From Bosea sp. 124 (GTDB taxonomy: Bacteria; Pseudomonadota; Alphaproteobacteria; Rhizobiales; Beijerinckiaceae), in assembly GCF_003046175.1 (NCBI RefSeq), contig NZ_PZZM01000001.1:2559001-2623000 (forward strand): DNA of 64,000 bases. The letters run 5' to 3'. Position numbers and translations under genes: made by a program. Shown here piece after piece: positions 9,422-41,646 of this stretch; positions within the stretch are counted from its first letter, which is position 1, and the number at the start of each line of letters is the position of its first letter. The notes under the pieces are model-generated. The model was given only the letters and a program-made list of their open reading frames with translations. It had not been told where the DNA came from and did not search any database.

Positions 9422-9524
9422 GGGTCTAGCGCTTTGCTTTGGACCGATTAGTGACCGCAGTCCCGTGGCTTCGGAATTGGCCTGCCTCGCGCTTGTCGCT
9501 TGGCAGAGGCGTGGTTGGCCGGAG

Positions 9525-10315: not shown

Positions 10316-10365
10316 ACAAGTGCGTCGATGTGTAGTGTGTTGATTTCCTTTACGGGAGGTCGTCA

Positions 10366-10632: not shown

Positions 10633-10852
10633 CCTGACTATTGGGCCTTGCACATCTCCTCAGCGGTAGTGCCGCAACCAATCGGAGGGCTAGTGAAGTC
10701 CCGGTAGCTATTTGAAGTGCTGGCCAAGGTCTTAGAGGCATGTCGCCACATCGGCGTGGACGTCACGGGGATCGACTCTGCTGACGGAACAGGGCTACCG
10801 TGCAGGCATTAGGCGGTCCAGACCGCGACAAGTGATTTTGGAACCCCAGCAC

Positions 10853-11570: not shown

Positions 11571-11743
11571 TGGGGCTTTCGGCTGTGTCAGTTAGCCAAC
11601 TGATGCCGAAGGTGCTTGTTGCCCCCGGATAGAAAGAATTGTCCCGATTATCATTTTCAATTCGTTAAGTGTCGCCCAGGTTCTACGATGCGGCCCGCCT
11701 AAGACATTTCGCAGATGCGGCATATCCGCTACAGACCGAGAAC

Positions 11744-24884: not shown

Positions 24885-26138
24885 CTATCCGGCCGTATTT
24901 GCTCGGATAGGTGTGATGTTGTTGCCCTTCGCCTTTGGCGTTCCGACGAAGCGCGCCCAAGCGTCCATAATCTTGCGGCGCTTTTCCAGCGCGTCGCCCC
25001 GGCGATAAGCGCGCTCGGTCTCGTCGCCAACGACGTGGGCCAGCGCGGCCTCTGCAATCTCGCGGGGGAAGGCAGTCTGCTCGCCGCACCAGTCTCGAAA
25101 ACTCGATCGGAAGCCGTGCGGCGTGAATTGCTCCATTTGCATGCGGCGCATCAACATGAGGATAGCGTGAGAAGAGAGCGGTCGTCCCTTTCGGGCGCCG
25201 GCAAATACAAACTCGCTGGTGCTGCTCTGTTGCAGAGACCGCGCGATATTGAGCGAGCGTCCGACTAGCGGGACGCGGTGAACCCGCCCGGCTTTCATCC
25301 TGTCAGCTGGAACGGTCCAGACGCCACGGTCGAAGTCGATCTCATCCCATTTCGCGCCGCGGATCTCTCCGGTGCGCGAGGCGGTAAGGATCAGGAACTC
25401 AAGCGCGCGGGCAGCAGTAGCATCACGTTCGCGCAGGCTTTGGACGAAGGCGGGTACGTCATCGTAAGCCATGGCGGCGTGATGGCCGCGGGCTAGCCTT
25501 GATCGCTTCGGAAGGAGCTTGTCGAGATGGCCGCGCCACCGCGCAGGGTTCTCGCCAGTGCGTTTCCCCTTGGCCTTCGCGGCATCAAGTACGCGCTCGA
25601 TACGGCCGCGAACACGCGACGCGGTTTCCGCTTTCGCCTTCCAGATCGGCTTCAGAACGTCGAGCACCTGCTCGGTCCCGACCTTATCGATACGGAGAGG
25701 CCAGAGTGAGGCTGCGTGCGTCTTGAGCGATGAGGACCATTGCGCCTGATGCTTGGCGTTCCGGAAGCCGGCCTTGATGTCTTCGATGAGTGTCTCGGCG
25801 AACTCTCCAAAGGTGGGCGTCGCATGCAAGCCGGCCTCGGTCGCTGCGATGGCATCCTTTCGAGCCTGGATCGGATCACTGCCCGCATCGATGAGCTTGC
25901 GAGCTGCTGCCGCCTTGTCGCGAGCTTCCGCCAGCGTGACGGCGTCCAGCCCGCCGAGGCCCATCTCTTTCCGGCCAGATCCCCAGCGGAACATAAACAG
26001 CCAGCGTTTCGCACCGCTGGCGTCGACCCATAGATAAAGGCCGCCGCCGTCGCTGTGCCGCCCCGGCGCCGTCAGTGTGGCGACGCCTCGTGCTGTGAGC
26101 TTGTTGACCTGGCGCCCCACCGTCACCCCACTTTTCAC
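24885..26138 (-). CDS. Tyrosine site-specific integrase (P4 type)
   Basis: 417 residues. N-terminal DUF4102-type arm-binding domain (D-G-G-G-L-Y-L-W-V-D), SAM-like core, and a catalytic domain with Arg255 in T-A-S-R-T-G-E, H341-x-x-R344, His368 in A-L-A-H-V-V-G and nucleophile Tyr378 in E-R-A-Y-R-R-G-D. Catalyses integration and excision of the mobile element; it marks the right edge of the accessory region. Confidence 0.95.
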   Translation of the reverse strand: MKSGVTVGRQVNKLTARGVATLTAPGRHSDGGGLYLWVDASGAKRWLFMFRWGSGRKEMGLGGLDAVTLAEARDKAAAARKLIDAGSDPIQARKDAIAATEAGLHATPTFGEFAETLIEDIKAGFRNAKHQAQWSSSLKTHAASLWPLRIDKVGTEQVLDVLKPIWKAKAETASRVRGRIERVLDAAKAKGKRTGENPARWRGHLDKLLPKRSRLARGHHAAMAYDDVPAFVQSLRERDATAARALEFLILTASRTGEIRGAKWDEIDFDRGVWTVPADRMKAGRVHRVPLVGRSLNIARSLQQSSTSEFVFAGARKGRPLSSHAILMLMRRMQMEQFTPHGFRSSFRDWCGEQTAFPREIAEAALAHVVGDETERAYRRGDALEKRRKIMDAWARFVGTPKAKGNNITPIRANTAG

Positions 26139-26464: not shown

Positions 26465-27772
26465 TCAGCTCGCCATCGGATCGAGGAAGAAGCGGTCCCC
26501 GCCTGCCTGTCCGCCCTTGAGGATGACCTCGACACCGTTCAATTCGTCGGTCGAGAGCAGCCGGCAGGTATGGCTTGCCTGCTGCCCGATCGACGAGGCG
26601 ATCTCAAGCGCATAGGCCCCGCAGCTGCGCATCGCGAAGCTCGAACTGTCGCCCCCGGCGAAGATGACGCGGCGCAGCCCCGCTTCGCGAACCGCTTGCC
26701 GGAACAGGCCGGCCAGAGCGTGGCCGACCGCAGGCGCCCGGTCGAGATCGAAAGCCTGCGTGACCTCGCCGCGCGCTGTGTAGACCGCGACCGAGCGCCC
26801 GGCCTGAAGCGCAGCGATCATGCCGGGAGCGAGCGCATCCGTTGCGCGCTGCGCTTCGTCCGCTCCGGTGAGGCGTTCGACCGGCAAGTGGATCATCGTC
26901 CAGCCCTCGGCCTCCACTGCGGCCAGCTGCGCTGCTGTCTGAGCCGCGCAACTGCCCGAGAGCACGAGGCCGGGCCCTTCATGCGCTTCCGCCGAAAGCT
27001 TCGAGACGCGGCCGAGCTGCGCCGCCACCGCGCCGCCCAGCCCCTGCGGCAGGCCCTGTGCGGCGAGGCTGAAGACATTCCGCCGCTGCGCCAGCTGCCA
27101 GATCGCGCCGCTGACATGTTCGAGCTGCCGGTTGTCGATCGTGTCGAGAACGACCGGCACGCCGCCTTCGGAACGCTTTGCGATCAGTTCCGCGAGAGGG
27201 GCCATATCCCGAGCCAGCTCGGGCAGCATTATCGCAGCCGTCGCCGCGACGCCGAGATTGGCGAGATGGCGGCGCAGATCGGCCTCGTTCATCGGCGTCG
27301 ACGGGTGCTCGACCAGCGCCGGATTGCGGTCCAGCCGCAGGATTTCGCCGCGATGGCGCGAGAAATGAGTGGCAAAGGCGGTATAGCGGCCGAAATCCGG
27401 CGTCGCGGGCAGGACGGGAAGGAGTGCGTCAGGCCAGACGCGGAGTGCCTCTTCGATCGCCACGGAAAAATTCCCCGTCTCTGGCGCGGAATCGAAGGTC
27501 GAGCAGATCTTGTACTGGTTAAGACGGGTTCCAAGCGAGCCGAACAGCGCAAAGGCGGCTCTGAGCAGAGCCCGCATCTCGCCTGGTGCGCGTGACCGGG
27601 CGACGCCAGCGATACCGACGACATCGAGCGCAGCCGCTTCCTTGCGGACACGTTCGGGATCTGCCGGTTCGAAATAGAGCCGGCAGCGCAGCCCGTATTT
27701 GTGGAACTGCGCGAGATTCTCCGAGGCTCCGGTGAAGTCGTCGCCATAGAAGCAGATGACGGGCCCGCTCAT
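26465..27772 (-). CDS. Four-carbon acid sugar kinase family protein (DUF1537)
   Basis: 435 residues, full length. N-terminal F-Y-G-D-D-F-T-G-A-S-E-N substrate motif and C-terminal nucleotide-binding part with F-A-G-G-D-S-S-S-F-A and L-K-G-G-Q-A-G-G. The family phosphorylates acid sugars or their oxo derivatives with ATP (DtnK, OtnK, LtnK, OiaK). Together with the RuBisCO-like gene nearby, a kinase for an oxo-acid sugar such as 3-oxo-isoapionate is plausible, but not shown. ATGA overlap with the regulator gene. Confidence 0.9.
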   Translation of the reverse strand: MSGPVICFYGDDFTGASENLAQFHKYGLRCRLYFEPADPERVRKEAAALDVVGIAGVARSRAPGEMRALLRAAFALFGSLGTRLNQYKICSTFDSAPETGNFSVAIEEALRVWPDALLPVLPATPDFGRYTAFATHFSRHRGEILRLDRNPALVEHPSTPMNEADLRRHLANLGVAATAAIMLPELARDMAPLAELIAKRSEGGVPVVLDTIDNRQLEHVSGAIWQLAQRRNVFSLAAQGLPQGLGGAVAAQLGRVSKLSAEAHEGPGLVLSGSCAAQTAAQLAAVEAEGWTMIHLPVERLTGADEAQRATDALAPGMIAALQAGRSVAVYTARGEVTQAFDLDRAPAVGHALAGLFRQAVREAGLRRVIFAGGDSSSFAMRSCGAYALEIASSIGQQASHTCRLLSTDELNGVEVILKGGQAGGDRFFLDPMAS

Positions 27773-28536
27773 GACCTCAGCTCCGCCTTGTCGTCCCGGC
27801 TCTCCACTTGCTCGAGCATCTTGCGGAAATGCTCCATATTGGCCTCGACGCCGTAGCATTCGCGCGCGCCGCCGGAATTTCGGGTCTCGATCATCGTGTA
27901 CATGATCTCGTGCAGCCGGACGGTGTCGGCGAGGCCGCCGCTGGCATGCGAACGGCGCAGCCAGCCCGACACCATGTTCAGCACGAAATTCGCGAGCGTC
28001 GCCACGAGCTCGTTCTGGGCGGCGCGGTAGATCGCCCGGTGGAAATCGAGATCGGCTTCGAGCGCCGCGTCGAAGTCGATCGGTTTCGCGGCGACGAGCA
28101 GGCGCAATCGTTCGATGCAGGCACGCATCGCCGCGAGATCCTCATCAGTCCGCCTTTGCGCTGCAAGCTCTGCGCAACTGCGCTCGAACAGCGTGCGGAC
28201 CTCCATCAGCTTCTGCGGGGTCGTGTCCTTGAGATAGATCTCGAACAGCAGGAGCTGGCCTAAGGAAGCCTGTGCGCCGGCACTGACGAAGGTCCCGTGG
28301 CCGTGTTTCACGACCAGGATGCCCGCCGCCGCCAGCACCTTGACCGCTTCGCGTACCGGGGTGCGGCTCAGGCCGAGTTCTCGCGCCAGTTCGATCTCTG
28401 GTGGCAGTTGCGAGCCGGGTTTAAGGCTGCCGTCGGCGATGCGCTGCTTGATGTGTTCGAGCACGGTTTCGAGTCGGCTGAGCGGTTTCCTGCCCTTTCC
28501 CGCGGTCGTTTCCCGGCGGCTTGTCGCGTCGTCCAT
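27769..28536 (-). CDS. FCD-domain GntR family regulator
   Basis: 255 residues. Winged helix-turn-helix (L-P-P-E-I-E-L-A-R-E-L-G-L-S-R-T-P-V-R-E-A-V-K-V-L) at about 40-90, then a helical FCD ligand domain with the metal-binding pattern D-L-D-F-H-R-A-I and later H-E-I-M-Y. It probably represses the divergent catabolic operon and its own operon with the kinase, released by an acid-sugar intermediate. Confidence 0.92.
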   Translation of the reverse strand: MDDATSRRETTAGKGRKPLSRLETVLEHIKQRIADGSLKPGSQLPPEIELARELGLSRTPVREAVKVLAAAGILVVKHGHGTFVSAGAQASLGQLLLFEIYLKDTTPQKLMEVRTLFERSCAELAAQRRTDEDLAAMRACIERLRLLVAAKPIDFDAALEADLDFHRAIYRAAQNELVATLANFVLNMVSGWLRRSHASGGLADTVRLHEIMYTMIETRNSGGARECYGVEANMEHFRKMLEQVESRDDKAELRS

Positions 28537-28674: not shown

Positions 28675-29436
28675 ATGACCGAGATTGCGCCGGAATTTGC
28701 CGGCCGCGTCGCTTTGGTGACCGGCGGGGCAAGAGGCATCGGCCGCGCCTGCTGCCTGCGCCTTGCCGAAGGCGGAGCGAAGATCGCGCTCAACTATGCC
28801 GCCAACCACAGTGCTGCGGCTGAGACCAAGGCCATGGTCGAGGCGCAGGGTGGCGTCTGCGAACTCTTTCCGGCCGATGTCGGCGACGAGGCGGCCTTTA
28901 CAGGTGTGGTCGCCGCGGTGCGCAGCAAGCTCGGCCCGATCTCCTATTTCGTCGCCAATGCCGGCACTACCGGCCCGCTCCATCACTCGGAGCTGACGCT
29001 CGACACCTTCCGCGAAACCGTCAGGGTCAATCTCGACGGCGTTTTCATCGGCATCCAGCATGTCAAGGACGACATGCTTGCCCAGGGCCATGGCAGCATC
29101 GTTTGCCTGAGTTCGATTGCGGCGCTGCGGCCACGCGCCCGCCAGATCGACTACGCCGCGGCCAAGGCCGGCGTGATCGCGCTGGTGCGTTGCTACGCCG
29201 AGGCCCTGGCGCCGGCGGTACGCGTCAACGCCGTCGCGCCCGGCCTGACCGAGACCGACATGCTCGGCCAGCTCGACCAGTCGCTGCTGCCGGCCCGCGT
29301 CGCAGCGATTCCGCTCAAGCGCTACGGCAAGGCGAGCGAGCCGGCCGAGGCGATCGCCTTCCTGCTGTCCGACCGCGCCTCGTTCATTACCGGCCATACG
29401 ATGGTTGTGAGCGGCGGCGATGTCATGACGCCGTGA
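28675..29436 (+). CDS. SDR family oxidoreductase
   Basis: 253 residues. NAD(P) motif T-G-G-A-R-G-I-G, N-A-G at about 98, catalytic S-S in L-S-S-I-A-A-L and Y-A-A-A-K. C-terminal substrate loop closes with F-I-T-G-H-T-M-V-V-S-G-G-D. First gene of the rightward catabolic operon; probably oxidises a hydroxyl of the sugar acid or a branch sugar. Exact substrate unknown. Confidence 0.9.
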   Translation: MTEIAPEFAGRVALVTGGARGIGRACCLRLAEGGAKIALNYAANHSAAAETKAMVEAQGGVCELFPADVGDEAAFTGVVAAVRSKLGPISYFVANAGTTGPLHHSELTLDTFRETVRVNLDGVFIGIQHVKDDMLAQGHGSIVCLSSIAALRPRARQIDYAAAKAGVIALVRCYAEALAPAVRVNAVAPGLTETDMLGQLDQSLLPARVAAIPLKRYGKASEPAEAIAFLLSDRASFITGHTMVVSGGDVMTP

Positions 29437-29489: not shown

Positions 29490-30746
29490 ATGACCGAGAT
29501 CCGTGCCCACTACCTGATCGAGACGCCGCTGCCGGTGGAGCAGGCCGCCGCTGCCATTGCCGGCGAGCAGTCGACCGGCACATTCATGAAGCTCGCCTCC
29601 GAGACCGATGCCGTGACGGCGCGGGCAGGGGCGCGGGTCGCTCGTATCGAGCGCCTCGCCGAAGTGCCGGTGCCCAGTCTGCCCGGAGCGCGCGCCTCCG
29701 CGCGAGCGCGCTACACCCAGGCGAGGATCGAGATTGTCTGGCCTTACGCCAGTATCGGGCCGGACCTGCAGACGCTGATGGCGACGGTCTGCGGCAATCT
29801 CGGCGAATTGAGCGAGCTCTCCGGCATCCGCCTGCTGGACGTCGACCTGCCGCCGGAGCTCATCGCGGCCTTCCCCGGCCCCCGCTTCGGCATCACCGGG
29901 ACGCGTGAGCGTTTCAAGCTCGACGGGCTGCCCGCCATCGGCACCATCGTCAAGCCGAGCATCGGCCTGCTGCCGGACGAGACCGCTCAGATCGTCACAC
30001 AATTCGCCGAAGGCGGGATCGACTTCATCAAGGACGATGAGCTGACGTCGAATCCGCTCTTCGCGCCGCTCGACGCGCGGATCGCAGCGGTGATGGCGGC
30101 GGTCGACCGCCATGCCGACCGGACTGGCCGGCGCATCATGTATGCCTTCAACATCACCGGCGATCTCGACCAGATGCGCCGCGGCGCCGAGGCGATCCTG
30201 AAGGCCGGCGGCGATTGCGCCATGCTCAGCCTCAACTGGATGGGGACGCCGGCCGTGCTGGCGCTGCGCCGCGAGTTCCCGCTCTTCATCCATGGCCATC
30301 GCAATGGCTGGGCGCTGTTCTCGCGCGCGCCGATGCTTGGCTTCGACTACCGCGTCTACCAGAAGCTGCATCGCCTCGCCGGCGTCGACCACATCCATGT
30401 CAACGGCCTGCGCAGCAAGTTCGCCGAGAGCGACGAGTCGGTTCTGGCTTCTGCCCGCGCCTGCCTGACGCCGCTGCATGATGGTGATCCACGTGTGATG
30501 CCGGTGCTGTCGAGCGCGCAGACCGTGCTGCAGGTCCACGACACCTATTCGGCGCTCGGCACGACGGACCTGATCTACGCCTGCGGTGGCGGCATCGTCG
30601 GCCATCCTGACGGCATTGCCGCTGGCACGCGCGCGTTGCGCGCAGCTTGGGAAGCGGCTCGAGCCGGCATCCCGCTCGCAGTCGCAGCCAGAGAGATGCC
30701 CGCGCTGAAGCGGGCGATCGAGACCTTCGAGCGGCACGCGAAATGA
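29490..30746 (+). CDS. RuBisCO-like protein (form IV)
   Basis: 418 residues. Keeps core RuBisCO features: catalytic-loop lysine in G-T-I-V-K-P-S-I-G-L (K155) and the metal-carbamate motif G-G-I-D-F-I-K-D-D-E (K181, D183, E184). It lacks the small subunit and Calvin-cycle neighbours, so carbon fixation is not expected. RuBisCO-like proteins next to DUF1537 kinases include OiaX and OiaT, which decarboxylate or hydrolyse 3-oxo-isoapionate 4-phosphate. That is the best guess here, though subgroup assignment needs a tree. Confidence 0.9.
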   Translation: MTEIRAHYLIETPLPVEQAAAAIAGEQSTGTFMKLASETDAVTARAGARVARIERLAEVPVPSLPGARASARARYTQARIEIVWPYASIGPDLQTLMATVCGNLGELSELSGIRLLDVDLPPELIAAFPGPRFGITGTRERFKLDGLPAIGTIVKPSIGLLPDETAQIVTQFAEGGIDFIKDDELTSNPLFAPLDARIAAVMAAVDRHADRTGRRIMYAFNITGDLDQMRRGAEAILKAGGDCAMLSLNWMGTPAVLALRREFPLFIHGHRNGWALFSRAPMLGFDYRVYQKLHRLAGVDHIHVNGLRSKFAESDESVLASARACLTPLHDGDPRVMPVLSSAQTVLQVHDTYSALGTTDLIYACGGGIVGHPDGIAAGTRALRAAWEAARAGIPLAVAAREMPALKRAIETFERHAK

Positions 30747-30782: not shown

Positions 30783-31577
30783 ATGTCTAGACGCCTGGAG
30801 AACAAGATTGCGCTGGTCTTCGGTGCCGGCTCGGTCGGCGAGGGCTGGGGCAACGGCAAGGCCTCTGCCGTGCTCTATGGGCGCGAGGGCGCCAAGGTCG
30901 CCTGCGTCGATCTCAATCTCGCCGCGGCCGAGCGCACGCGCGAGATCATCGAGAGCGAGGGCGGAACCGCCCTGGCGCTGCAGGCGGACGTGGTGAACCT
31001 CGATCGCGTGCGCGAGGTCGTCGACACGGTGCAGTCGACCTGGGGCCGTATCGACGTGCTGCACAACAATGTCGGCATGAATATCGAGGGCGGCCCGGTC
31101 GAGACTACGGAAGAACAATGGGATCGCGTCATGGACGTGAATCTGAAGAGCATGTTTTTCGCTTGCAAATGTGTCCTGCCGATCATGGAAGAGCAGGGTT
31201 CAGGTTCGATCGTGAATATCTCGTCTCTGGCTTCGATCCGCTGGATGCACTTCAACTATATTTCGTACTACGCCTCGAAGGCAGCGGTGAACCACTTCAC
31301 CCGGGCAATCGCGATGCAATATGCCGAGAAGGGCATCCGGGCGAACACCGTGCTGCCCGGCCTGATGGATACGCCGCACATCTACGAGGCGATGAAGGCG
31401 CACTACACCGACTTCACCGAGATGCAGCGCAAGCGTGCCGAGGTGACGCCGATGAAGCGCATGGGCGACGGCTGGGATATCGCGCATGCGGCGCTCTTCC
31501 TAGCCTCCGACGAGTCGAAATACATCACCGGCATCGATCTTTGCGTCGATGGCGGCCTGCACTGCAAGACGCATTGA
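30783..31577 (+). CDS. SDR family oxidoreductase
   Basis: 264 residues. The glycine motif is stretched (G-A-G-S-V-G-E-G-W-G-N-G), then N-N-V-G-M-N, catalytic Ser in I-S-S-L-A-S and Y-Y-A-S-K. Distinct from the SDR at 28675, so two different oxidation steps are likely. AGACGG-GAGA precedes the start. Substrate unknown. Confidence 0.9.
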   Translation: MSRRLENKIALVFGAGSVGEGWGNGKASAVLYGREGAKVACVDLNLAAAERTREIIESEGGTALALQADVVNLDRVREVVDTVQSTWGRIDVLHNNVGMNIEGGPVETTEEQWDRVMDVNLKSMFFACKCVLPIMEEQGSGSIVNISSLASIRWMHFNYISYYASKAAVNHFTRAIAMQYAEKGIRANTVLPGLMDTPHIYEAMKAHYTDFTEMQRKRAEVTPMKRMGDGWDIAHAALFLASDESKYITGIDLCVDGGLHCKTH

Positions 31578-31587
31578 GGAGCCGGCC

Positions 31588-32496
31588 GTGACGACCAGTT
31601 CTCAATCGCCAAAGATCGGCTTCATCGGCCTCGGTGTCATGGGGCGCCGCATGGCGCTCAACCTACGCAAGGCCGGCTTCGACCTTGCCGTCCACGACTT
31701 CAACCGCGCCGCTGTCGCCGAGCTTGTCGCGGCCGGAGCGAGCGATGCTGGCTCGATCGCCGGCGCCGGCGCCGCCGACATCGTCATCACGATGCTGCCC
31801 GATACGCCCGATGTCGAAGCCGTGGTGCTCGGCGAGGGCGGGCTCGCAGCTTCGATGCGCCCGCACAGCGTCCTGATCGACATGAGTTCGATCTCGCCGA
31901 CGGCGACCCGTGCCATGGCCGAGACGCTGGCGGCGAGGGGCGTCGCCATGCTCGATGCCCCGGTCAGCGGCGGTTACCAGGGCGCGGAGAACGCGACGCT
32001 GTCGATCATGATCGGCGGCGACGCTGGCGTGCTCGAACGATGCCGCCCGGTCCTGGAGGCAATGGGCAAGACCATCAGCCATATTGGCGGGCCGGGTGCC
32101 GGCCAGGTCTGCAAGGTCTGCAACCAGGTCGCGGTCGCGATCAATATCCAGGCCGTCGCGGAGGCGATGACGCTGGCGCGCAAGAACGGTGTCGATCCGG
32201 ACAAGATCCGGACGGCGCTGCTTGGCGGCTTTGCCCAGAGCAAGGCTCTCGACCTGCATGGCCAGCGTGTGCTCGACGGCAACTTTGCCGCCGGCTTCCG
32301 TGTCACCTTGCAGCGCAAGGACCTCAAGCTCGCGCTCGAGAATGGCAGCGCCACCGGCACGGCTCTTCCCGTCACGGCGTTGGTCCAGCAGCTCTACGGT
32401 GTGCTCGCCAATACCGGCCGCGCCGATCTCGACAATTCCTCGCTGGCGCTCTTGATGCAGGAGATGTCGGGCATCGCGCCGGAGGGCAGGGGATGA
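31588..32496 (+). CDS. Beta-hydroxyacid dehydrogenase (GarR/LtnD-like)
   Basis: 302 residues from GTG 31588, which follows GAGGA; an upstream ATG would overlap the SDR. Rossmann motif G-F-I-G-L-G-V-M-G-R-R-M, substrate motif D-A-P-V-S-G-G and catalytic lysine in G-A-G-Q-V-C-K-V-C-N-Q. The family oxidises or reduces beta-hydroxy acids such as tartronate semialdehyde or threonate. ATGA overlap with the next gene. Confidence 0.9.
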   Translation: MTTSSQSPKIGFIGLGVMGRRMALNLRKAGFDLAVHDFNRAAVAELVAAGASDAGSIAGAGAADIVITMLPDTPDVEAVVLGEGGLAASMRPHSVLIDMSSISPTATRAMAETLAARGVAMLDAPVSGGYQGAENATLSIMIGGDAGVLERCRPVLEAMGKTISHIGGPGAGQVCKVCNQVAVAINIQAVAEAMTLARKNGVDPDKIRTALLGGFAQSKALDLHGQRVLDGNFAAGFRVTLQRKDLKLALENGSATGTALPVTALVQQLYGVLANTGRADLDNSSLALLMQEMSGIAPEGRG

Positions 32497-32921
32497 ACAC
32501 AGCCCAACCCGATTTCGTCATGCTGCGCGAGGTCGTCGAGATCGTCGGTACGCGTCGCGTCGTCGCCGTCGATACGATCGCGCATGTGAAGCCCGAGGAT
32601 GCCGGCCAGGTGGTGATGACCGGCTCGCATGGCGGCATCAGCTCCGGCGAATATGCCGGCAAGGTGCCGATCGCGGCGGTGTTCTTCAACGATGCCGGCA
32701 TCGGCAAGGAGGACGCCGGCATCGCCTCGCTGCCCTATCTCGAGGCGCGGGGCATCATCGCCGGCACGGTCTCGCATGACAGCGCGCTGATCGGCAACGC
32801 GCTGGAGACCTGGCAATCGGGCGTCGTGTCCGCCCTCAATCCATTGGCGGAAAAGGCCGGCTTCGCGCTCGGTGAGCCGGCAAACCAGGCCGTCCGCCGC
32901 GTCTTCGGAGGCCGGCCATGA
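32493..32921 (+). CDS. Uncharacterised protein A of a tandem paralogous pair
   Basis: 142 residues, soluble. Key segments: T-G-S-H-G-G-I-S-S-G, V-F-F-N-D-A-G-I-G-K-E-D-A-G, G-T-V-S-H-D-S-A-L-I-G and W-Q-S-G-V-V-S-A. The same blocks occur in the next protein, so the two arose by duplication and probably form a heteromer. Conserved His, Asp, Asn and Lys suggest an active site or metal site. ATGA overlaps with both neighbours place it firmly in the RuBisCO-like catabolic operon. No known function. Confidence 0.8.
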   Translation: MNTAQPDFVMLREVVEIVGTRRVVAVDTIAHVKPEDAGQVVMTGSHGGISSGEYAGKVPIAAVFFNDAGIGKEDAGIASLPYLEARGIIAGTVSHDSALIGNALETWQSGVVSALNPLAEKAGFALGEPANQAVRRVFGGRP

Positions 32922-33313
32922 GGAATGAGACCGTTGGCGAGATCGCTGGCCATCGCGTCGTGCTGATGGATTCGATCTCGCTGATCGCACCGCAGGACGA
33001 GGGGGCGATCATCATTTGCGGCTCGCATGGCGGGTTGATCTCGGGCGCCTTCGCGGCGCTGCATCCGCCGCATCTGGTCGTCTTCAACGATGCCGGGGGC
33101 GGCAAGGCTTGTGCCGGACGCGCCTCGCTCGCGATGCTCGATGCGAAGGGCATCGCCTGCGCCACCACCTCGCACGACACGGCCCGGATCGGTGACGCGC
33201 AGGATGCCTGGCTGAGCGGCGTGCTCAGCGCCGTGGGCGATGCCGCACGGCGGAAGGGCCTCAGGGCCGGCCAGAGCGTCAAGGAAGCTGCGGAGGTTGC
33301 CGGCAACGCATAG
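32918..33313 (+). CDS. Uncharacterised protein B of a tandem paralogous pair
   Basis: 131 residues. Shares with protein A: I-C-G-S-H-G-G-L-I-S-G, V-V-F-N-D-A-G-G-G-K-A-C-A-G, T-T-S-H-D-T-A-R-I-G and W-L-S-G-V-L-S-A. Differences cluster between the blocks (for example Gly for Ile in the D-A-G-x-G-K motif). Start overlaps protein A's stop as ATGA. Function unknown; a two-subunit enzyme is the simplest reading. Confidence 0.8.
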   Translation: MRNETVGEIAGHRVVLMDSISLIAPQDEGAIIICGSHGGLISGAFAALHPPHLVVFNDAGGGKACAGRASLAMLDAKGIACATTSHDTARIGDAQDAWLSGVLSAVGDAARRKGLRAGQSVKEAAEVAGNA

Positions 33314-33407: not shown

Positions 33408-34385
33408 ATGCTCAACACCAAGCTTACGGCGTCTGTCCTGGCGCTCGGACTGTTGCTTGCTGCGCCGGCGGCCAAGGCCGTCGAACTCAGCTTCGCAATG
33501 CACACCTCGCCGCCAGGACCCGAATTCCAGGCGGTCGACAAGTTCGTCGAACTGGTCAAGGAGCGGAGCAAGGGTCAGATCAACGTCAAGATCTTCCATT
33601 CCGCGGTGCTCGGCGGCGAGCGCGACAATCTCGAACAGCTTACCGTGAACGAAGTCCAGATGACGCTGTTTGGCGATACGCTGCCGAATGTCGTCGCGCC
33701 GCCCTATGCCGCGACCGTCGTGCCCTTCGTGTTTCCCGGCCCAGAAGAGATTTTCGAGTTCTGGGCGAGTTCGGCCGGTGCCGAGGGCAAGAAGCTGATC
33801 AAGGACAAGGCCAAGCTCGATCTCGTGGCCTTCTTCCGTCGCGGCGACCGTCACCTTTCCGCCAAGAAGGCAATCCGGACGCCCGACGATCTGAAGGGGC
33901 TCAAGTTGCGCGTTCCGGAAATTCCCTCCTGGGTCCGGGTGTGGTCAGAGCTCGGTGCCCGGCCGACGCCCGTCGCCTGGCCGGAGGTTTTCAGCGGCCT
34001 GCAGATGGGTGTGATCGAGGCGCAGGAAAATCCCTGCTTCAACGTCAACCAGGCCAAGCTCTACGAGGTTCAAACGCACCTGATTTATACGGCGCATGTC
34101 CCGGCCGTCTGGCACTGGACGATCAGCTCGCGCTTCCTCGACAGCCTGAGTCCGGAACTGCGCACGGCCGTCGTCAGCTCGGCCGTCGACGCCGCCAAAT
34201 ACGGCGACGAGGTCACCAAGCAGCAGATCGACGGCGTCTGCAACGCGCTGGTCGAGAAGAACAAGATGACCGCGATCAAGGTCGATCGCGCGCCCTTCAT
34301 CGCCAAGGCTCGCCCCGCCATCGATGAACTCTCGAAGGGCTGGGCGCCGAGCGTCGTCCAGGCCGTCTCCAAGTACCTGAAGTGA
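33408..34385 (+). CDS. TRAP transporter substrate-binding protein (DctP type)
   Basis: 325 residues with a Sec signal peptide (A-L-G-L-L-L-A-A-P-A-A-K-A). Carries the DctP features L-G-G-E-R-D-N-L-E-Q, D-L-K-G-L-K-L-R-V-P and Q-M-G-V-I-E-A-Q-E-N, with the conserved arginine in L-K-L-R-V-P that binds a substrate carboxylate. GGGAGG precedes ATG 33408. Delivers the acid substrate to the permease encoded next. Confidence 0.94.
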   Translation: MLNTKLTASVLALGLLLAAPAAKAVELSFAMHTSPPGPEFQAVDKFVELVKERSKGQINVKIFHSAVLGGERDNLEQLTVNEVQMTLFGDTLPNVVAPPYAATVVPFVFPGPEEIFEFWASSAGAEGKKLIKDKAKLDLVAFFRRGDRHLSAKKAIRTPDDLKGLKLRVPEIPSWVRVWSELGARPTPVAWPEVFSGLQMGVIEAQENPCFNVNQAKLYEVQTHLIYTAHVPAVWHWTISSRFLDSLSPELRTAVVSSAVDAAKYGDEVTKQQIDGVCNALVEKNKMTAIKVDRAPFIAKARPAIDELSKGWAPSVVQAVSKYLK

Positions 34386-34425: not shown

Positions 34426-34454
34426 CCGGAATGCAAGGCAGCCTGGAGAACGTG

Positions 34455-34958
34455 ATGGCCCCGGTAAAAGGTATCCGAAGGACGATCTACGTCGTCTTTG
34501 AAACACTCGCGATTTCTGCATTCCTGATCATGATCACGTCTTCGGTCTTGCAGGTCTTCTTCCGCTATATCCTGAATGCACCGCTGCAATGGACGGAGGA
34601 GCTGGCGCGTCTCACCTGCGTCCTCACTACCTATTTCGGCGGCGTCGTCATTCTGATCACCCGCGAGCATATCCGGGTCGACATCATCGACGGCTATGTC
34701 TCCGGACGCTCGGCCGATGTCGTCGCCATGCTCGTTGACCTTCTGATCTCCTGGTTCCTGATCTCCGTCGCCTATGGCTGCTGGCTCCTGACCAACGCGA
34801 CCTGGGAGACCTTCACCGCGACCATGGACTGGTTCCGCACGGGCTATGTCTACGCCGCCGTCGGCATCTCGATGCTCGTCATGACCTTTCTCATGTTGCT
34901 CGACATGTTCGAGCGAGCGATGCACATGGCCGGCCGCGCCAGGGGAGCCGAACAATGA
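34455..34958 (+). CDS. TRAP transporter small permease (DctQ type)
   Basis: 167 residues from ATG 34455 (GGAG upstream; an ATG at 34431 is possible). Four membrane segments, with the typical Q-W-T-E-E-L-A-R motif between helices 1 and 2 and R-E-H-I-R-V-D after helix 2. ATGA overlap with the large permease gene. Confidence 0.93.
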   Translation: MAPVKGIRRTIYVVFETLAISAFLIMITSSVLQVFFRYILNAPLQWTEELARLTCVLTTYFGGVVILITREHIRVDIIDGYVSGRSADVVAMLVDLLISWFLISVAYGCWLLTNATWETFTATMDWFRTGYVYAAVGISMLVMTFLMLLDMFERAMHMAGRARGAEQ

Positions 34959-36244
34959 TCCTGGCGCTTTTCATCGGCGGCTTGCTCGCTCTCTTCGTGA
35001 TCGGCGTTCCGGCGGCCTTCGCGCTGGGCCTGTCCTCGCTGATCGTCACGCTCGTGGAGCGCGGCATCAACGGTATCCCCTACACCATCCTCGCCCAGCG
35101 CATGGTCTACGGCGTCAACAGCTTCCCGCTGCTGGCAATCCCGTTCTTCATCCTGGCCGGCAAGATCATGAATACCGGCGGCATCACCGATCGCATCTAC
35201 GAGTTTGCCGATCGCCTCGCCGGCCACATGCGCGGCGGACTTGGCCAGGTCAATATCGCGGCCTCGATCATCTTCTCCGGCATGTCCGGTTCGGCGGTCG
35301 CGGATGCGGTCGGCGTCGGCCAGGTCGAGATCCGGGCGATGCGGCAGGCCGGCTACCCCGACGATTTCTCGGTCGGCGTCACTGCGGCCTCCGCGACGAT
35401 CGGCCCGATCATTCCGCCCAGCATCCCGCTGATCATCTACGCGGTGGTCGCGAATGTCTCGGCGACCGCGCTGCTCATCGCCGGTATCCTGCCGGGATTG
35501 CTGATGGGCGGGTTGATGATGCTGCTGGTCTGGTGGCAGGCGCATCGCCGCAAGCTGCCGACCGAGAAATGGCAGGGCTTCGCGGCGCTGGTCCGCAGCT
35601 TCTTCAGGGCGCTCCCGCCGCTGTTCACGCCCGCCATCATCATCGGCGGCATGATGAGCGGCGTCTTCACCCCGACCGAAGCCGCTGCCATCGCTGCCGT
35701 CTACGCGATCATCATCGCCATGCTGGTCTATCGCGAGATCACGCTGGCGCAATTGTTCCAGGTCCTGCGCGAGACCATGCGCGAGACGGCCGGCATCATG
35801 ATGATCCTCGCCGCGGCCGCGCTCTATGGCTGGCTGCTGGTCTTCACCCAGATCCCGCAGCAGCTCGTCGCGCTCGTCGGCGGGCTCGATCTTTCCCCGG
35901 TGATGCTGCTGCTGGCGATCAACGTCTTCCTGCTGGTCATCGGTCTGTTCATGGAGACCAACGCCGCGATCACCATCTTCACGCCGATGCTGCTGCCGCT
36001 GGCCGTCGCGGTCGGGGTCGACCCGGTGCATTTCGGGATCATGATGGTGCTCAACCTGATGATCGGTCTGCTGACTCCTCCGGTCGGCATGGTGCTCTTC
36101 GCTGTCGCGAAGGTCGCGAACGTGCCGATAAACAAGGCGCTGGTGGCCATCGCGCCGTTCTACGTGCCGCTGGTGATCGCCCTGCTGTTGATCACCTATA
36201 TCCCGGAAATATCCTTGATCCTGCCGCGGCTGCTGCTGAATTAG
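34955..36244 (+). CDS. TRAP transporter large permease (DctM type)
   Basis: 429 residues with about 12 membrane segments. Signature segments include P-F-F-I-L-A-G-K-I-M-N, F-S-G-M-S-G-S-A-V-A-D-A, P-P-S-I-P-L-I-I-Y and L-M-I-G-L-L-T-P-P-V-G-M. Sodium-coupled translocation subunit of the transporter. Confidence 0.95.
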   Translation: MILALFIGGLLALFVIGVPAAFALGLSSLIVTLVERGINGIPYTILAQRMVYGVNSFPLLAIPFFILAGKIMNTGGITDRIYEFADRLAGHMRGGLGQVNIAASIIFSGMSGSAVADAVGVGQVEIRAMRQAGYPDDFSVGVTAASATIGPIIPPSIPLIIYAVVANVSATALLIAGILPGLLMGGLMMLLVWWQAHRRKLPTEKWQGFAALVRSFFRALPPLFTPAIIIGGMMSGVFTPTEAAAIAAVYAIIIAMLVYREITLAQLFQVLRETMRETAGIMMILAAAALYGWLLVFTQIPQQLVALVGGLDLSPVMLLLAINVFLLVIGLFMETNAAITIFTPMLLPLAVAVGVDPVHFGIMMVLNLMIGLLTPPVGMVLFAVAKVANVPINKALVAIAPFYVPLVIALLLITYIPEISLILPRLLLN

Positions 36245-36270
36245 GCCGAGCCAAAGTGTCGGAGGTGACC

Positions 36271-37065
36271 ATGCCGTCACAAGCCTTCTCGAATCCGCTG
36301 CGGCGGAAGCTGAAATCCGGTGAGCCGACAGTCGGGCTCTGGGCCACGCTCGAGAGTGCGACTGTCACCGAGGTCGCCGCCGAACTCGGCGTCGACTGGG
36401 TCTGCGTCGACATGGAGCATGGCAGCCTCGGCTATCGCGACGTGGTCGACCATCTCCGCGCCGCGAAGGGCAGCGACCTCGCGGTGATCGTGCGCGTCCC
36501 GACCGCCTCGGTCGATACGATCAAGCGCGCGCTCGATCTTGGTGCCCACGGGGTGCTGCTGCCGCTGATACGCGAGCCTGCGGAACTCGCCGAGGCTTTT
36601 GGCCATGCGCGCTATCCGACCTCCGGCAAGCGCGGACTCGGCCATGAGCGCGCCTTGCGCTGGGGCATGGCGATGGAGAGCTACGTCGCCGTTGCGAACG
36701 AGGAGACCATGGTCATTCCCGTGATCGAGACCGCCGAGGCCTCGGCCAACATCGCCGACATCCTTGCCGTGCCTGGGCTGGAGGCGATTTTCTTCGGCCC
36801 GTCCGATCTCTCGCAGAGCTTCGGCCATCTCGCGGTCTGGGAAGGACCGGGCATTGCCGAGGACATCCTGCGCATGAAGCGCCTGGCGGACGAGCGCGGC
36901 ATTGCCTCCGGCATCATCGGTACGAGCGCCGACGACATCGCCAAGCGTCGGCAGCAGGGATTTGGCATGATCGGGCTGGGCTCGGATGTCGGATTGATGA
37001 TCCGGGAATTGCGTCAATTGCTGGCGCCATTCCGAGATGTCGCGGAGCGCAAGGGCGGCTACTGA
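36271..37065 (+). CDS. HpcH/HpaI family aldolase
   Basis: 264 residues, start ATG 36271 behind GGAGG. TIM-barrel features: G-L-W-A-T-L-E-S, the metal-binding V-C-V-D-M-E-H-G, R-V-P-T-A-S, P-V-I-E-T-A-E-A and F-G-P-S-D-L-S. Class II aldolases of this family split 2-oxo-3-deoxy acids into pyruvate or a related oxoacid and an aldehyde. Last gene of the operon, so probably the final carbon-carbon cleavage of the pathway. Confidence 0.92.
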   Translation: MPSQAFSNPLRRKLKSGEPTVGLWATLESATVTEVAAELGVDWVCVDMEHGSLGYRDVVDHLRAAKGSDLAVIVRVPTASVDTIKRALDLGAHGVLLPLIREPAELAEAFGHARYPTSGKRGLGHERALRWGMAMESYVAVANEETMVIPVIETAEASANIADILAVPGLEAIFFGPSDLSQSFGHLAVWEGPGIAEDILRMKRLADERGIASGIIGTSADDIAKRRQQGFGMIGLGSDVGLMIRELRQLLAPFRDVAERKGGY

Positions 37066-37360: not shown

Positions 37361-38644
37361 TCAGTTCAACACCAGATTCGGCAGCCACAGCACGGTTTGC
37401 GGAAACAGCGTTATCACGACCAGCACGGCCAGACCCACTGCCAGGAACGGCAGCACCTCGCGAATGACGCTCTCGATCTTCACCTGGGCGAAGTTCCCGC
37501 AGATATACAGCAGAATGCCGACGGGCGGCGTGAGCAGGCCCAGCATCAGGTTGAACACCAGCACCAGCCCGAAATGCACGAGGTCGATGCCGACGGCTTC
37601 GACGATTGGGATGAGGACCGGGACCAGGATGATCATCGCCGCGATCGCCTCCATGAAGCAGCCGACCACGAGCAGCAGCAGGTTGATCAGCAGGAGGATG
37701 ACGAGGGGGTTGTCCGAGATGGCGGCGATCGCGGTGGCGATCTGGCGGGGCAGGCCGCTGATCGCCATCAGCCAGCCGAAGCCCGCGGCGAAGGCGATGA
37801 TGATCATCACCACGGCGGAATCGAGCCCACTCTGGACGCAGATGCCCCAGAGCTGGCGCCATGAGAGTTCGCGATGCACCACCATCGAGACAAAGAGCGC
37901 ATAGAGCACAGCGATCGCCGCGCTCTCCGTGACCGTAACGATGCCGCCGGTCACGCCGAAGAGGATGACGAAGGGCATCATCAGCGCCCAGATCGCCTTG
38001 ACGCCAGCCGACATGAGTTGCCGCATCGGAACGGCTTCGTGCACCGGATACCGGCGTGCGCGGGCGACGAAATAGACTGCGACCGCCAGCCCGGCGCCCA
38101 GCAGCAGCCCGGGCACGACGCCGCCGAGGAAGAGCGCGGCGACCGAGACACCCTTGCCGACGGACAGCGCATAGATGACCAGCGGAATCGAGGGCGGGAT
38201 GATCGGTCCCATCACCGATGCCGACGCCGTGATCGCGGCGGCCAGTCCAGGCGCGTAGCCTGAGCGCTTCATGCCCGGAATCAGAACCTTGCCCAGCGCC
38301 GTCGCATCGGCCACCGCCGAGCCTGAGACGCCGGAGAAGACCATGCACGACATCACGGTCGTCAGGCCGAGCCCGCCCGAAAAGCGACCGACGCAGGCAT
38401 TGGCGAAACTGATGATGCGGACGGTGATGCCACCCACATTCATGATGTTCCCGGCCAGGATGAAGAACGGGATTGCAAGCAGCGAATAGGAATCCGCGCC
38501 GATCAGGGCCCGCTGCACAAAGACTGAATAGGGCAGGGACGGGTGGTTGGCGATCGTGACGATCGCTGCCAGTGCCATGGCGAATGCGATCGGCAGTCCG
38601 ATCAGCATCAGCCCGGTGAAGCTCAGCATAAGGACGCCGGCCAC
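37361..38644 (-). CDS. TRAP transporter large permease (DctM type), second system
   Basis: 427 residues, about 12 membrane segments, with P-F-F-I-L-A-G-N-I-M-N, F-S-G-V-S-G-S-A-V-A-D-A, P-P-S-I-P-L-V-I-Y and L-M-L-G-L-L-T-P-P-V-G-I. Paralog of the 34955 permease, but not a recent copy. Last gene of a leftward operon. Confidence 0.95.
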   Translation of the reverse strand: MAGVLMLSFTGLMLIGLPIAFAMALAAIVTIANHPSLPYSVFVQRALIGADSYSLLAIPFFILAGNIMNVGGITVRIISFANACVGRFSGGLGLTTVMSCMVFSGVSGSAVADATALGKVLIPGMKRSGYAPGLAAAITASASVMGPIIPPSIPLVIYALSVGKGVSVAALFLGGVVPGLLLGAGLAVAVYFVARARRYPVHEAVPMRQLMSAGVKAIWALMMPFVILFGVTGGIVTVTESAAIAVLYALFVSMVVHRELSWRQLWGICVQSGLDSAVVMIIIAFAAGFGWLMAISGLPRQIATAIAAISDNPLVILLLINLLLLVVGCFMEAIAAMIILVPVLIPIVEAVGIDLVHFGLVLVFNLMLGLLTPPVGILLYICGNFAQVKIESVIREVLPFLAVGLAVLVVITLFPQTVLWLPNLVLN

Positions 38645-38657
38645 GGTCGAATCTCCT

Positions 38658-39173
38658 CTAGAGGTGGACCTCGCCGGTCGGATCGCGCTTCTGCGGATCG
38701 AACAGTTTTTCGATCCAGAACAGAATGATCAGCGCGCCGCAGAACGGGGCAGCGAAATAGAACCAGGCGGGGGTGATCTCGAGGGCACCGAAGGTCTGTC
38801 CCAGCGTTCCGATCGAGATCTGCAGTCCGAACCAGAGCATCATCACCGCGATCAGAAGCATCAGGGCCTGGTTGACCCAGAATATCGCGGTCTGGAACCT
38901 CTGCGGCAGCATCAGCACGAACATGTCGATCGCGATGTGCAGCATCTGCCGGTAGAGTACGGTCGCGCCTGCGAAGACTGACCAGACGAACAGGATGCGG
39001 CAGACCTGCTCTGTCCAGGAGAGCGGGTTGTTGAGGCCGTAGCGATACCACACGGCGACAACCGTGATGACGACGATGGCCGCGAGCGAACCGCCGACGA
39101 TGACGCGGCTGACCCATTCGCAAACGTCGCAGAGGGCGCGCCAGAGCGCGGTAAATCCGTTGCGGGGCTGCAT
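38658..39173 (-). CDS. TRAP transporter small permease (DctQ type), second system
   Basis: 171 residues from ATG 39173. Four membrane segments and the S-W-T-E-Q-V-C-R motif that corresponds to the conserved tryptophan-glutamate of the family. 13 bp before the large permease gene. Confidence 0.92.
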   Translation of the reverse strand: MQPRNGFTALWRALCDVCEWVSRVIVGGSLAAIVVITVVAVWYRYGLNNPLSWTEQVCRILFVWSVFAGATVLYRQMLHIAIDMFVLMLPQRFQTAIFWVNQALMLLIAVMMLWFGLQISIGTLGQTFGALEITPAWFYFAAPFCGALIILFWIEKLFDPQKRDPTGEVHL

Positions 39174-39198
39174 GGCAAACCAGATTCGAGGGCGTGGT

Positions 39199-39222
39199 GG
39201 GCCGGGCCTCGCGGCCCGGCCC
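39199..39222 (-). other. Intercistronic hairpin after second TRAP binding-protein gene
   Basis: Perfect 10-bp all-GC stem (GGGCCGGGCC / GGCCCGGCCC) with a tetraloop, between binding-protein and small-permease genes. No T-run, so read-through and mRNA protection are likely. Confidence 0.65.
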
Positions 39223-39240
39223 GACATCGGCTGAATCAGT

Positions 39241-40236
39241 TCAGGCGATGCCTCTGATCTTCTCGATCCAGCCCTTCACATGGGCGAATTCGGCTTCCAT
39301 GCCCTCTAGGCTCTTGCGGAACGCATCCTTGTCGACCTCGTTGATCGCGATCTTCTTCGCCTTGACGAGTTCGAGGATACGGTTGTCGTCCGCGATCACC
39401 TTCGGCCGCAGGTCATCTTCCATTTCCCGCGCGGCCTGGACGACGAGCTTGCGCTGCTCCTCTGTGAGCCCGCGAAAACTCGCCTCCGACAGGACCATCA
39501 TATTGTCCTGCATCATGTGTTCGGTCAGGGCGAGGTTGCGGTTCACGTCGAAGATGCCGCTGTTGTAGGTCAGCGCCATCGGATTCTCCTGACCCTCGAT
39601 CACGCCCGACTTCAGCGCCTGGAAGACCTCCGGGAAGGCGAGAGGCGTCGGCGAGGCGCCGAAGCGTTCGAAGGTGCGCCGCCACATCGTCGTTTCCGGT
39701 ACGCGGATCTTCAGGCCCTTGAGGTCGGCCGGCGTCTTGACGACGCGGTTGGAGGAGAGTGTTCGCGGCATCCGCGGGATCGCCCCGACCGGCCGCAGCT
39801 TGGCCTGTTTGCCGACCTCATCGCCGTATTCGACCATAATAGCGGTCATGACCTTGTCCTTATGGGCCACGTCCTTGAAGAGATAAGGATAGGTCCAGAC
39901 CTCGGCCGGTTTGTACCAGCCACCCAAAATCGCAGCGCCGGGCGTCGCGACATGGATGGCGCCCTGCAGCAGCCCCTCGACGTTCTCGCGTTCGCCACCA
40001 AGCGCGCCGGCATGGTGCGCCGTGATGTTGATCTGGCCCTTGGTCAGGGCCTTCACCCGCGCCGCGAAGACATCGAGGCTCAGCGCGATGAAATCGGTCG
40101 GCGGTGTCGCGGAGGCGCCGATCCATTCGATCTGCTGGGCGCGCAGCACGGACGGCATGGCGATCGTGCCGGCTGCCGCCGCTGCCGCGCCGAGAACGGC
40201 GCGTCGGCTCGGATTGCTAATGAATTTCGTCGTCAT
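39241..40236 (-). CDS. TRAP transporter substrate-binding protein, second system
   Basis: 331 residues. The N-terminus has a twin-arginine style signal (S-R-R-A-V-L-G-A-A-A-A-A-A-G) ending at L-R-A-Q. DctP features: L-G-G-E-R-E-N-V-E, D-L-K-G-L-K-I-R-V-P, S-G-V-I-E-G-Q-E-N-P. Export through Tat would be unusual but is known for some TRAP binding proteins. Confidence 0.93.
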   Translation of the reverse strand: MTTKFISNPSRRAVLGAAAAAAGTIAMPSVLRAQQIEWIGASATPPTDFIALSLDVFAARVKALTKGQINITAHHAGALGGERENVEGLLQGAIHVATPGAAILGGWYKPAEVWTYPYLFKDVAHKDKVMTAIMVEYGDEVGKQAKLRPVGAIPRMPRTLSSNRVVKTPADLKGLKIRVPETTMWRRTFERFGASPTPLAFPEVFQALKSGVIEGQENPMALTYNSGIFDVNRNLALTEHMMQDNMMVLSEASFRGLTEEQRKLVVQAAREMEDDLRPKVIADDNRILELVKAKKIAINEVDKDAFRKSLEGMEAEFAHVKGWIEKIRGIA

Positions 40237-40305: not shown

Positions 40306-41646
40306 TCAGGCCCGGAAGACGGTCTCCATCTCGCGCCGGACCTTCACGGCCTGGTTGTTGGGATCGTAGTCGACATCGCTCCATTTCAGGCGCTGGCCCG
40401 CAGCGACATCGACCTTGAGCTTGACGTTATGGGCGAGCCCGAGCGGCAGATAGCCCTCGGCAAGCGAGGTCGCCGCCGGCGTCTGCTTGCCCCAGACGCA
40501 GAAGCCGCCTTCGCCATCCAGCATCTCGCCGGCCTTGAGTGCGCGCTTGGCCGTGGCGACGACGTCGGAGTTGAAGCAGATCGGCGCGCCCGTAGGTTCA
40601 TGACGCAGAGCGGCCGAGGCGACCGAGATGCCCAATTCGAGGCCGATCATGTGGATCGGCCGGTAAAGGCAAGCGTATTTGCCGCTCTTGTCGGGCAGCA
40701 TCGAGTATTCCCGGAAGCACTCCTCGCTATAGGCGCTGTCGCTCTCGAACACGACATAGGTGCCCATCACCAGGCTGTGCGGCACATCGCTGCCGTCGCG
40801 GTACACGGACGAGGTCACCTCGGTCACGCCGGCTTTCTCAAGCACGCCACCATCGGCTTTGGGCTTGCAGATCTCGGCATGCTCGAAGCGCGTCGCGGGT
40901 GGGAAGGACAGACCGTCGGCCTGGGCATGCAGCCCGGTGGCGTTGCAGACGGCGGTCATCTCGATGCCGGACTTGGTCCCGTCGACGAAGGAATTGAACA
41001 TCTTGGGGTTGATCGACTGGCGATCGCGGATCTTCATGTACTTGTCGAGGATGTCCCAGACGGTGTCCGGCGTGGACTGATGGTAGGTCGGATGGTAGCG
41101 CGTGCCCTTGCCTGCCGATACGACCCGGAAGCCGGCCGCGCGCGCCCAATCGACGTGGTCGGCGATCAGCGCCGGCTGGTCGCCCCAGGCCAGCGAATAG
41201 ACGACGCCCGCCTGCTTCGCCTTGCGCGCCAACAGCGGCCCTGCGACCGCATCGGCCTCGACATTGACCATCACGATGTGCTTGCCGTGGTCGATCGCGC
41301 GCATGGCGAAGCGAATGCCGGCGCCGGGATCGCCTGTCGCCTCGATGATGACCTCGATGCCGGGATGATCGATCAGCGAATCGGCGTTGTCGGTGATCAG
41401 GGTCGAGCCGTTCTTGATCGCGTCGTCGATCGAACGGGCGCCGTGTTGCTCGTCAGGCCAGCAGGCCAGCTTGAGCTGGGAGCGCGCCCGGGCCGTGTTG
41501 AGGTCGGCCACGCCGACGACCTGCATGCCGGCGGTGTTCCTGACCTGTGACAGGAACATGGTGCCGAACTTGCCCGCGCCGATCACCGCGACCGTGACCG
41601 GCTTGCCGGCCGCCTTGCGTTCCAGAAGTTTGCTATGCAGATTCAC
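40306..41646 (-). CDS. SAF-domain NAD(P)-dependent oxidoreductase
   Basis: 446 residues from GTG 41646, behind GAGGAAGG. N-terminal Rossmann fold (V-A-V-I-G-A-G-K-F-G-T-M-F) similar to homoserine dehydrogenase or Gfo/Idh/MocA enzymes, a middle catalytic domain (V-D-G-T-K-S-G-I-E-M), and a C-terminal SAF part (A-T-A-K-R-A-L-K-A-G-E-M-L-D-G-E-G-G). This family is often wrongly named after FlgA. It leads the second TRAP operon, so it probably oxidises the imported acid. Substrate unknown. Confidence 0.82.
   Translation of the reverse strand: MNLHSKLLERKAAGKPVTVAVIGAGKFGTMFLSQVRNTAGMQVVGVADLNTARARSQLKLACWPDEQHGARSIDDAIKNGSTLITDNADSLIDHPGIEVIIEATGDPGAGIRFAMRAIDHGKHIVMVNVEADAVAGPLLARKAKQAGVVYSLAWGDQPALIADHVDWARAAGFRVVSAGKGTRYHPTYHQSTPDTVWDILDKYMKIRDRQSINPKMFNSFVDGTKSGIEMTAVCNATGLHAQADGLSFPPATRFEHAEICKPKADGGVLEKAGVTEVTSSVYRDGSDVPHSLVMGTYVVFESDSAYSEECFREYSMLPDKSGKYACLYRPIHMIGLELGISVASAALRHEPTGAPICFNSDVVATAKRALKAGEMLDGEGGFCVWGKQTPAATSLAEGYLPLGLAHNVKLKVDVAAGQRLKWSDVDYDPNNQAVKVRREMETVFRA

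Follow-up and report, generated by a model that had tools for sequence, protein, structure and literature searches.

What do two small genes without a family name contribute to a catabolic operon that contains a RuBisCO-like protein (RLP)? The genes, which we call A and B, lie side by side in a 64,000-nucleotide stretch of the Bosea sp. 124 genome (contig NZ_PZZM01000001.1, positions 2,559,001 to 2,623,000; hereafter the window, numbered from its first letter). The pair is real, coupled and kept together, and it stands beside genes for a dehydrogenase, a kinase, the RLP and a tripartite ATP-independent periplasmic (TRAP) importer. That A and B make up a heteromeric DUF1805-like protein that works in this pathway seems to us probable; that each is one half of a heteromeric isomerase, which probably needs no cofactor and whose small, unnamed family has an alpha/beta fold like that of DUF1805, we put at about one chance in three.

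A and B are coupled paralogues

A sequence-only reading of the window had described the pair, and its description proved accurate to the nucleotide: A and B are adjacent open frames of 142 and 131 residues, each tied to the gene before it by an ATGA overlap (the gene of the HIBADH-family dehydrogenase ends at 32496 and A starts at 32493; A ends at 32921 and B starts at 32918). The four shared motifs are likewise present letter for letter (A/B): GSHGGISSG/GSHGGLISG; FNDAGIGKEDAG/FNDAGGGKACAG, of the type F-N-D-A-G-x-G-K-x-x-A-G; TVSHDSALIG/TTSHDTARIG; and WQSGVVSA/WLSGVLSA. Paralogy is borne out by BLASTP (55/124 identical, E 4e-34), an E value by which the likeness of the two sequences is judged not to be due to chance. 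No characterised family was matched when A and B were checked by profile against known families. At E 0.001, the protein collection holds 200 homologues of A and 355 of B; among the 120 listed for each, no name goes beyond 'hypothetical protein'.

A DUF1805-like predicted fold in a widespread family

We conclude that A and B belong to a widespread, unnamed family, whose distant relatives include the uncharacterised DUF1805 proteins. Structure prediction gives both a fold like that of TA1206 (1qw2; DUF1805, PF08827). By profile, neither A nor B matches PF08827 at E 1, and the curated cut-off of 29.5 bits is not reached; among 75 relatives there are 25 weak matches (best 5.5e-4), none seen above that cut-off. 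An unrelated model, IMS, matches the same 75 relatives equally well (19/75, best 5.0e-4), so the PF08827 scan of the relatives is not specific by itself. The DUF1805 comparison made with a profile of the A relatives alone gave 2.0%; one of the 21 controls (ctl10) was left out of the profile comparison, and the repeat used 20 shuffled controls. A and B differ from the DUF1805/YunC proteins in their SHGG and NDAGxGK loops and in having none of the cysteines that are conserved within the close DUF1805 set: C50 and C58 are invariant in alignment A4, whereas consensus A3 has no conserved cysteine. Among the listed matches of our literature search, which were mostly to author names, we found no function for DUF1805.

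With the host counted, matches to the family turned up in 47 of the 385 class genomes sampled, in 26 of the 149 sampled at the level of the taxonomic family and in 23 of the 249 sampled from the order; it is also present in Rubrobacter, Chloroflexi, Calidithermus and betaproteobacterial contigs. Besides tandem pairs and single genes there is a fused form with two domains in one open frame, which accounts for 24 of the 30 best loci from the class search. In two further loci, probably one contig (L166, 274-2409; L064, 1-2406), the family domain is C-terminal in an open frame of 711 residues, whose first part has no Pfam or NCBIfam match; this frame may be a true fusion or the result of a missed start.

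Conserved residues and the asymmetry of the pair

Nine residues are near-invariant across the family (numbered as in A): Ser45, His46, Gly47, Asp67, Ala68, Gly69, Gly71, Ile100 and Gly110. Asn66 is also strict, except in the fused N halves (21/29). The sequence-only reading had singled out conserved His, Asp, Asn and Lys residues; this stands for His46 and Asp67, and fails for Lys72 and the second histidine, His95.

A and B have lost different residues. Arg99 is absent from A (0/6), and is kept in B (7/7) and in 55 of the 62 singles that are not RLP-linked; Asp105 follows suit (0/6 in A, where it is always Glu; 7/7 in B; 58/62 in those singles). Conversely, Ser50 is replaced by Ile in every B (0/7), and kept in A (6/6) and in 54 of the 62 singles; Glu53, common but not universal in the family, is absent from B. 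The fused proteins are asymmetric too: Asp105 is found in 27/29 N halves and 0/29 C halves. To judge from these alignments, the reciprocal loss fits what is expected if a homomeric site had been divided between two partners. The earlier proposal of a heteromer is supported for the pair, whose A- and B-clade sequences in the tree all come from loci with both genes, but not in the form first given: other members are mostly single or fused.

A and B each form a clade in all three trees, with six A tips and seven B tips (the A sequence of L006 is too short), all from loci that carry both genes. Only the first tree unites A and B in an exclusive group with four singles (two from Rubrobacter, one from another actinobacterium, one from Rhodospirillaceae; 0.897); they are not joined exclusively in a larger FastTree tree, nor in a time-limited IQ-TREE tree that carries no support values. 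As for the fused C halves, 28 of 29 form a separate clade in the first tree (0.966), as they do together with L271 in the second (0.955). Since the grouping of A with B differs between trees, tandem and fused pairs may have arisen by separate duplications or by a shared one.

Gene neighbourhoods of the family

Neighbours were counted in stretches of up to 18 kb (Table 1). The 40 controls are hand-placed 18-kb stretches of 17 alphaproteobacterial genomes with fused members, and so match the fused set rather than the largely betaproteobacterial singles; less than 12 kb was available for 16/67 single and 5/29 fused loci. The 80 named loci are the best matches to B relatives among 175 found, not a random sample, and 10 of them, having no called family gene, were excluded. 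Some redundancy among the loci limits the independence of the counts: besides L064/L166, the pairs L042/L044 and L018/L020 look nearly duplicate. Genes of the compared loci, like the kinase and DctP starts in the window, were called by a purpose-written script.

Table 1. Loci with a given neighbour, by form of the family gene
Neighbour	Single	Tandem	Fused	Control
RLP	13/67	4/7	0/29	0/40
Kinase	14/67	5/7	0/29	0/40
ApnO-like (PF16896)	13/67	0/7	0/29	0/40
HIBADH	1/67	6/7	0/29	1/40
DctM	7/67	7/7	9/29	3/40
ALS-like thiamine diphosphate (ThDP) enzyme	2/67	0/7	21/29	0/40
E1alpha	2/67	0/7	17/29	0/40
BKACE	6/67	0/7	0/29	0/40
IlvD	5/67	0/7	0/29	1/40
HyuA	0/67	1/7	3/29	2/40
IclR	0/67	0/7	8/29	0/40

The homologues are not always single and away from acid-sugar genes, as the tandem loci and the RLP, kinase, dehydrogenase and TRAP neighbours attest; they are nevertheless mostly single or fused, and RLP was undetected at 54/67 single and 29/29 fused loci. 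RLP and family occur together in 17 stretches of this survey. A later sample of 12 stretches, of which L260, L261, L263 and L265 were treated as repeats of L023, L006, L036 and L048, added RLP and kinase beside the singles L264 and L267 and the fused L271, the last with an ApnO-like gene as well; no RLP was seen in its other five new stretches. Taking both together, RLP and kinase accompany members of all three forms, single, tandem and fused, the last in one case.

Some of these neighbours are in direct contact with the family gene. The fused gene overlaps the ALS-like gene by 4 bp in L146, L149, L151 and L154, and adjoins an IclR-type gene in L152, L153 (IclR by Pfam), L155, L157, L162 and L163; an ApnO-like gene adjoins the family gene in L009, L010, L015, L027, L048, L060 and L067. 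In L067 and L048, the family gene also has a 4-bp overlap with an ABC-type ATPase gene and is located after the ApnO-like gene and a LysR regulator. HyuA/HyuB-type genes stand beside the fused members L146 (CapA/CapB-like, 651 and 383 of 1000 bits), L160 and L174, a frequency for HyuA hardly above that of the controls and possibly due to chance. Single members lie inside a long conserved gene block in L022, in L029 (Zoogloeaceae) and in L035 (Denitromonas), and have a staphylococcal-nuclease-type gene directly downstream in L055, L075, L082 (PF00565) and L073, some of them from Limnohabitans or Comamonadaceae.

The RLP does not require the family: an OiaX-like RLP search (E 1e-60) found five loci in 4 of the 385 genomes, and in the 15-20 kb around each, the A/B family is present at the window locus only. 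L183 has a D-apiose-type operon, in which we take the large protein to be ApnL and likewise assume the assignment of the dehydrogenase; the family is absent from its 20-kb stretch. L185 is of similar type. A five-enzyme D-apiose cluster, which L183 resembles, is named in an extract of PMC11747546. The host genome itself has a second OiaX-like RLP and kinase (L182, G000:C1:1394000-1413500, 8571-11825), after a TRAP transporter and a VOC/glyoxalase-type protein, with the family absent from that stretch. In L184, ApnO-like, kinase and RLP genes lie next to genes for a PF01261 protein, for another kinase and for a HIBADH-like protein; the gene between these is a candidate OtnC.

A putative isomerase step and its alternatives

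If A and B are an isomerase, the loops DS/T, SHGG, NDAGxG and xxARIG that follow predicted strands would make up the active site, in which His46/His37 and Asp67/Asp58 of A/B are the putative general acid/base. The reaction, the least certain part, would be an enediol-type isomerisation that shifts an oxo group: a 2-oxo-3-hydroxy acid may become a 3-oxo-2-hydroxy acid, or the ketol product may be isomerised, and the resulting beta-keto acid would then be the substrate of the kinase and the RLP decarboxylase. By analogy, A/B would occupy the slot of OtnI in LtnD-OtnI-OtnK-OtnC, and that of Hyi beside Gcl.

Three observations lead us to favour this chemistry. A HIBADH-type dehydrogenase, to which the pair is coupled, a DUF1537 kinase and a decarboxylase-type RLP are present, and no PF01261 isomerase was found in the window; other RLP settings have a VOC protein (L182) or a nearby PF01261 protein (L184); and the fused gene overlaps an ALS-like gene in four loci, much as Hyi is encoded beside glyoxylate carboligase (Gcl) and tartronate-semialdehyde reductase in the gene order gcl-hyi-glxR. 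The likeness to that operon lies in a ThDP carboligase-type enzyme, an isomerase slot and a tartronate-semialdehyde-reductase-type enzyme, but here the partners are split between fused and tandem forms, and the ThDP enzyme of L153, at 260.3 of 791 bits, does not qualify as Gcl. With OtnI/hydroxypyruvate isomerase, A and B would share their place in the pathway, after a HIBADH-family dehydrogenase and before a DUF1537 kinase; OtnI and Hyi are, however, TIM-barrel proteins, and A and B have no AP_endonuc_2 (PF01261) match. The L-threonate path runs through LtnD, OtnI (2-oxo to 3-oxo), OtnK and OtnC in an extract of PMC12540250.

Several points weigh against an isomerase. His95 is rare in the fused C halves (3/29), missing from both halves of the RLP-linked fused L271, and replaced in the RLP-linked singles L021 and L267, so a chemistry common to these proteins cannot depend on it; Lys72, though present in A, B and almost every single, survives in only 8/29 N and 4/29 C halves. 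The stretches of 54/67 singles (41/51 of those with at least 12 kb) contain no RLP. The HIBADH-type enzyme could oxidise C3 directly, and the PF01261 protein of L184 seems to belong to a distinct Otn-type set, which includes a kinase of its own. As Carter reportedly described in 2018, ApnO already yields a 3-oxo acid, and ApnO-like genes adjoin singles, so that an isomerase is not obviously needed there. We know of no substrate or activity for any member of the A/B family or DUF1805. A three-step L-threonate bypass without the OtnI isomerase also appears in the extract of PMC12540250. It is above all the ApnO-like neighbours and the loss of Lys72 and His95 from part of the family that hold our estimate for the reaction at about one third.

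The best-placed alternative, though an unlikely one, is a protein without catalytic activity that binds a ligand or regulates, either by sensing an oxo acid or by modulating an enzyme encoded next to it. The diversity of partners (RLP, ThDP enzymes, ABC transporter), the failure to find a DUF1805 activity and the IclR-type gene near fused members (8/29 against 0/40 controls) speak for it, but the near-invariant polar residues are predicted to lie at strand ends, translational coupling to enzyme genes recurs, and no DNA-binding domain was found. Quite unlikely, in our view, is a role as a hydrolase, such as a lactonase, in which the pair would open a sugar-acid lactone formed by the short-chain dehydrogenases before the acid enters the pathway: the operon has two such dehydrogenases, the called window genes include no relative of the large L183 protein, and alpha/beta-hydrolase genes lie near several singles, yet TRAP importers suggest uptake of the acid itself, L060 carries the family together with a fragment related to the large L183 protein, and nothing in the ALS/E1 operons of the fused form points to a lactone. 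Still less likely is a beta-keto-acid decarboxylase or C-C hydrolase that acts beside or instead of the RLP; partners do use or make beta-keto acids (RLP; BKACE, 6/67 singles; ALS-like, 21/29 fused), but the window RLP is already a decarboxylase-type enzyme, and such coexistence recurs in the 17 shared stretches. Least likely of all, an accessory subunit or stabiliser of the adjacent 6PGDH-type dehydrogenase (HIBADH, ApnO-like) or ThDP enzyme would account for the ATGA coupling to HIBADH, the 4-bp overlaps with ALS-like genes and the seven ApnO-like adjacencies, but those partners are unrelated enzyme families and many singles have neither type.

For a family seen in 47/385 class genomes, the analysis supplies a likely fold, a near-invariant residue set and two testable pathway settings. 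Were the isomerase reading true, RLP catabolism would gain a step and the DUF1805 superfamily a way in for biochemistry, and the A/B pair and fused halves would illustrate a transition from homomer to heteromer. Its wider form we hold to be doubtful: an unnamed superfamily of oxo-acid/ketol isomerases that need neither metal nor cofactor and are built on a DUF1805-type fold, in which a homomeric ancestor gave rise to an asymmetric enzyme of two parts (tandem A+B and fused halves, perhaps independently) that replaces TIM-barrel isomerases in RLP and ThDP pathways. The further trees did not uphold separate duplications, which lowered its odds slightly.

The operon in the window

The sequence-only reading had placed the pair inside an RLP/kinase operon. 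Both gene types do stand beside it, but the kinase and the GntR regulator are encoded on the other strand and point away from the run that leads from the first short-chain dehydrogenase through RLP, HIBADH, A and B to the TRAP genes (Table 2). The nearest equivalogs are OiaX, OiaK and tartronate-semialdehyde reductase, all below cut-off, which makes this a pathway of the RLP/kinase type with a substrate that the profile scores do not name. An OiaX-like RLP and an OiaK-like kinase are shared with the D-apiose pathway (ApnL-ApnO-OiaK-OiaX), whose ApnO has counterparts adjoining single members; the window differs in having HIBADH, in RLP and kinase scores well below cut-off, and in that no ApnO-like or ApnL-like gene was found among its called genes.

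Table 2. Features of the window around the A/B pair (scores as bits obtained, of equivalog cut-off where given)
Feature	Position	Strand	Evidence
DUF1537-type sugar-acid kinase, OiaK/OtnK-like, below equivalog cut-offs	26465..27772	-	SBD_N 140.5 bits, NBD_C 86.4; NF042436 OiaK 240.5 of 700
GntR/FCD regulator	27769..28536	-	PF00392, PF07729
Short-chain dehydrogenase 1	28675..29436	+	PF13561
RLP, OiaX-like	29490..30746	+	PF00016 228.8 bits; NF042437 OiaX 436.8 of 700
Short-chain dehydrogenase 2	30783..31577	+	PF13561
Beta-hydroxyacid dehydrogenase (HIBADH family), nearest tartronate-semialdehyde reductase	31588..32496	+	TIGR01505 329.9 bits, cut-off 340.75; ThreonDh 174.8 of 350
Protein A, DUF1805-like predicted fold	32493..32921	+	sequence, BLASTP, predicted fold, residue conservation
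Protein B, DUF1805-like predicted fold	32918..33313	+	sequence, BLASTP, predicted fold, residue conservation
TRAP solute-binding protein DctP	33408..34385	+	PF03480 on 33435-34385; start from gene calling
TRAP small permease DctQ	34431..34958	+	inferred from position between DctP and DctM
TRAP large permease DctM	34955..36244	+	PF06808 428.7 bits
HpcH/HpaI-type aldolase	36256..37065	+	TIGR02311 152.5 of 368.8

A phage-type integrase gene (24885-26126, minus strand) immediately borders the operon on its kinase side; a search of the window for tRNA genes found none. The A/B family has no match in the six same-genus genomes listed, and is thus patchy within Bosea; together with the integrase, this hints at a genomic island. 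On the other side of the pair, a second TRAP transporter (37361-40236) stands beside a DRL-type oxidoreductase gene (40306-41646, minus strand; PF21135, 186.5 bits), whose product we take to be DXR-like.
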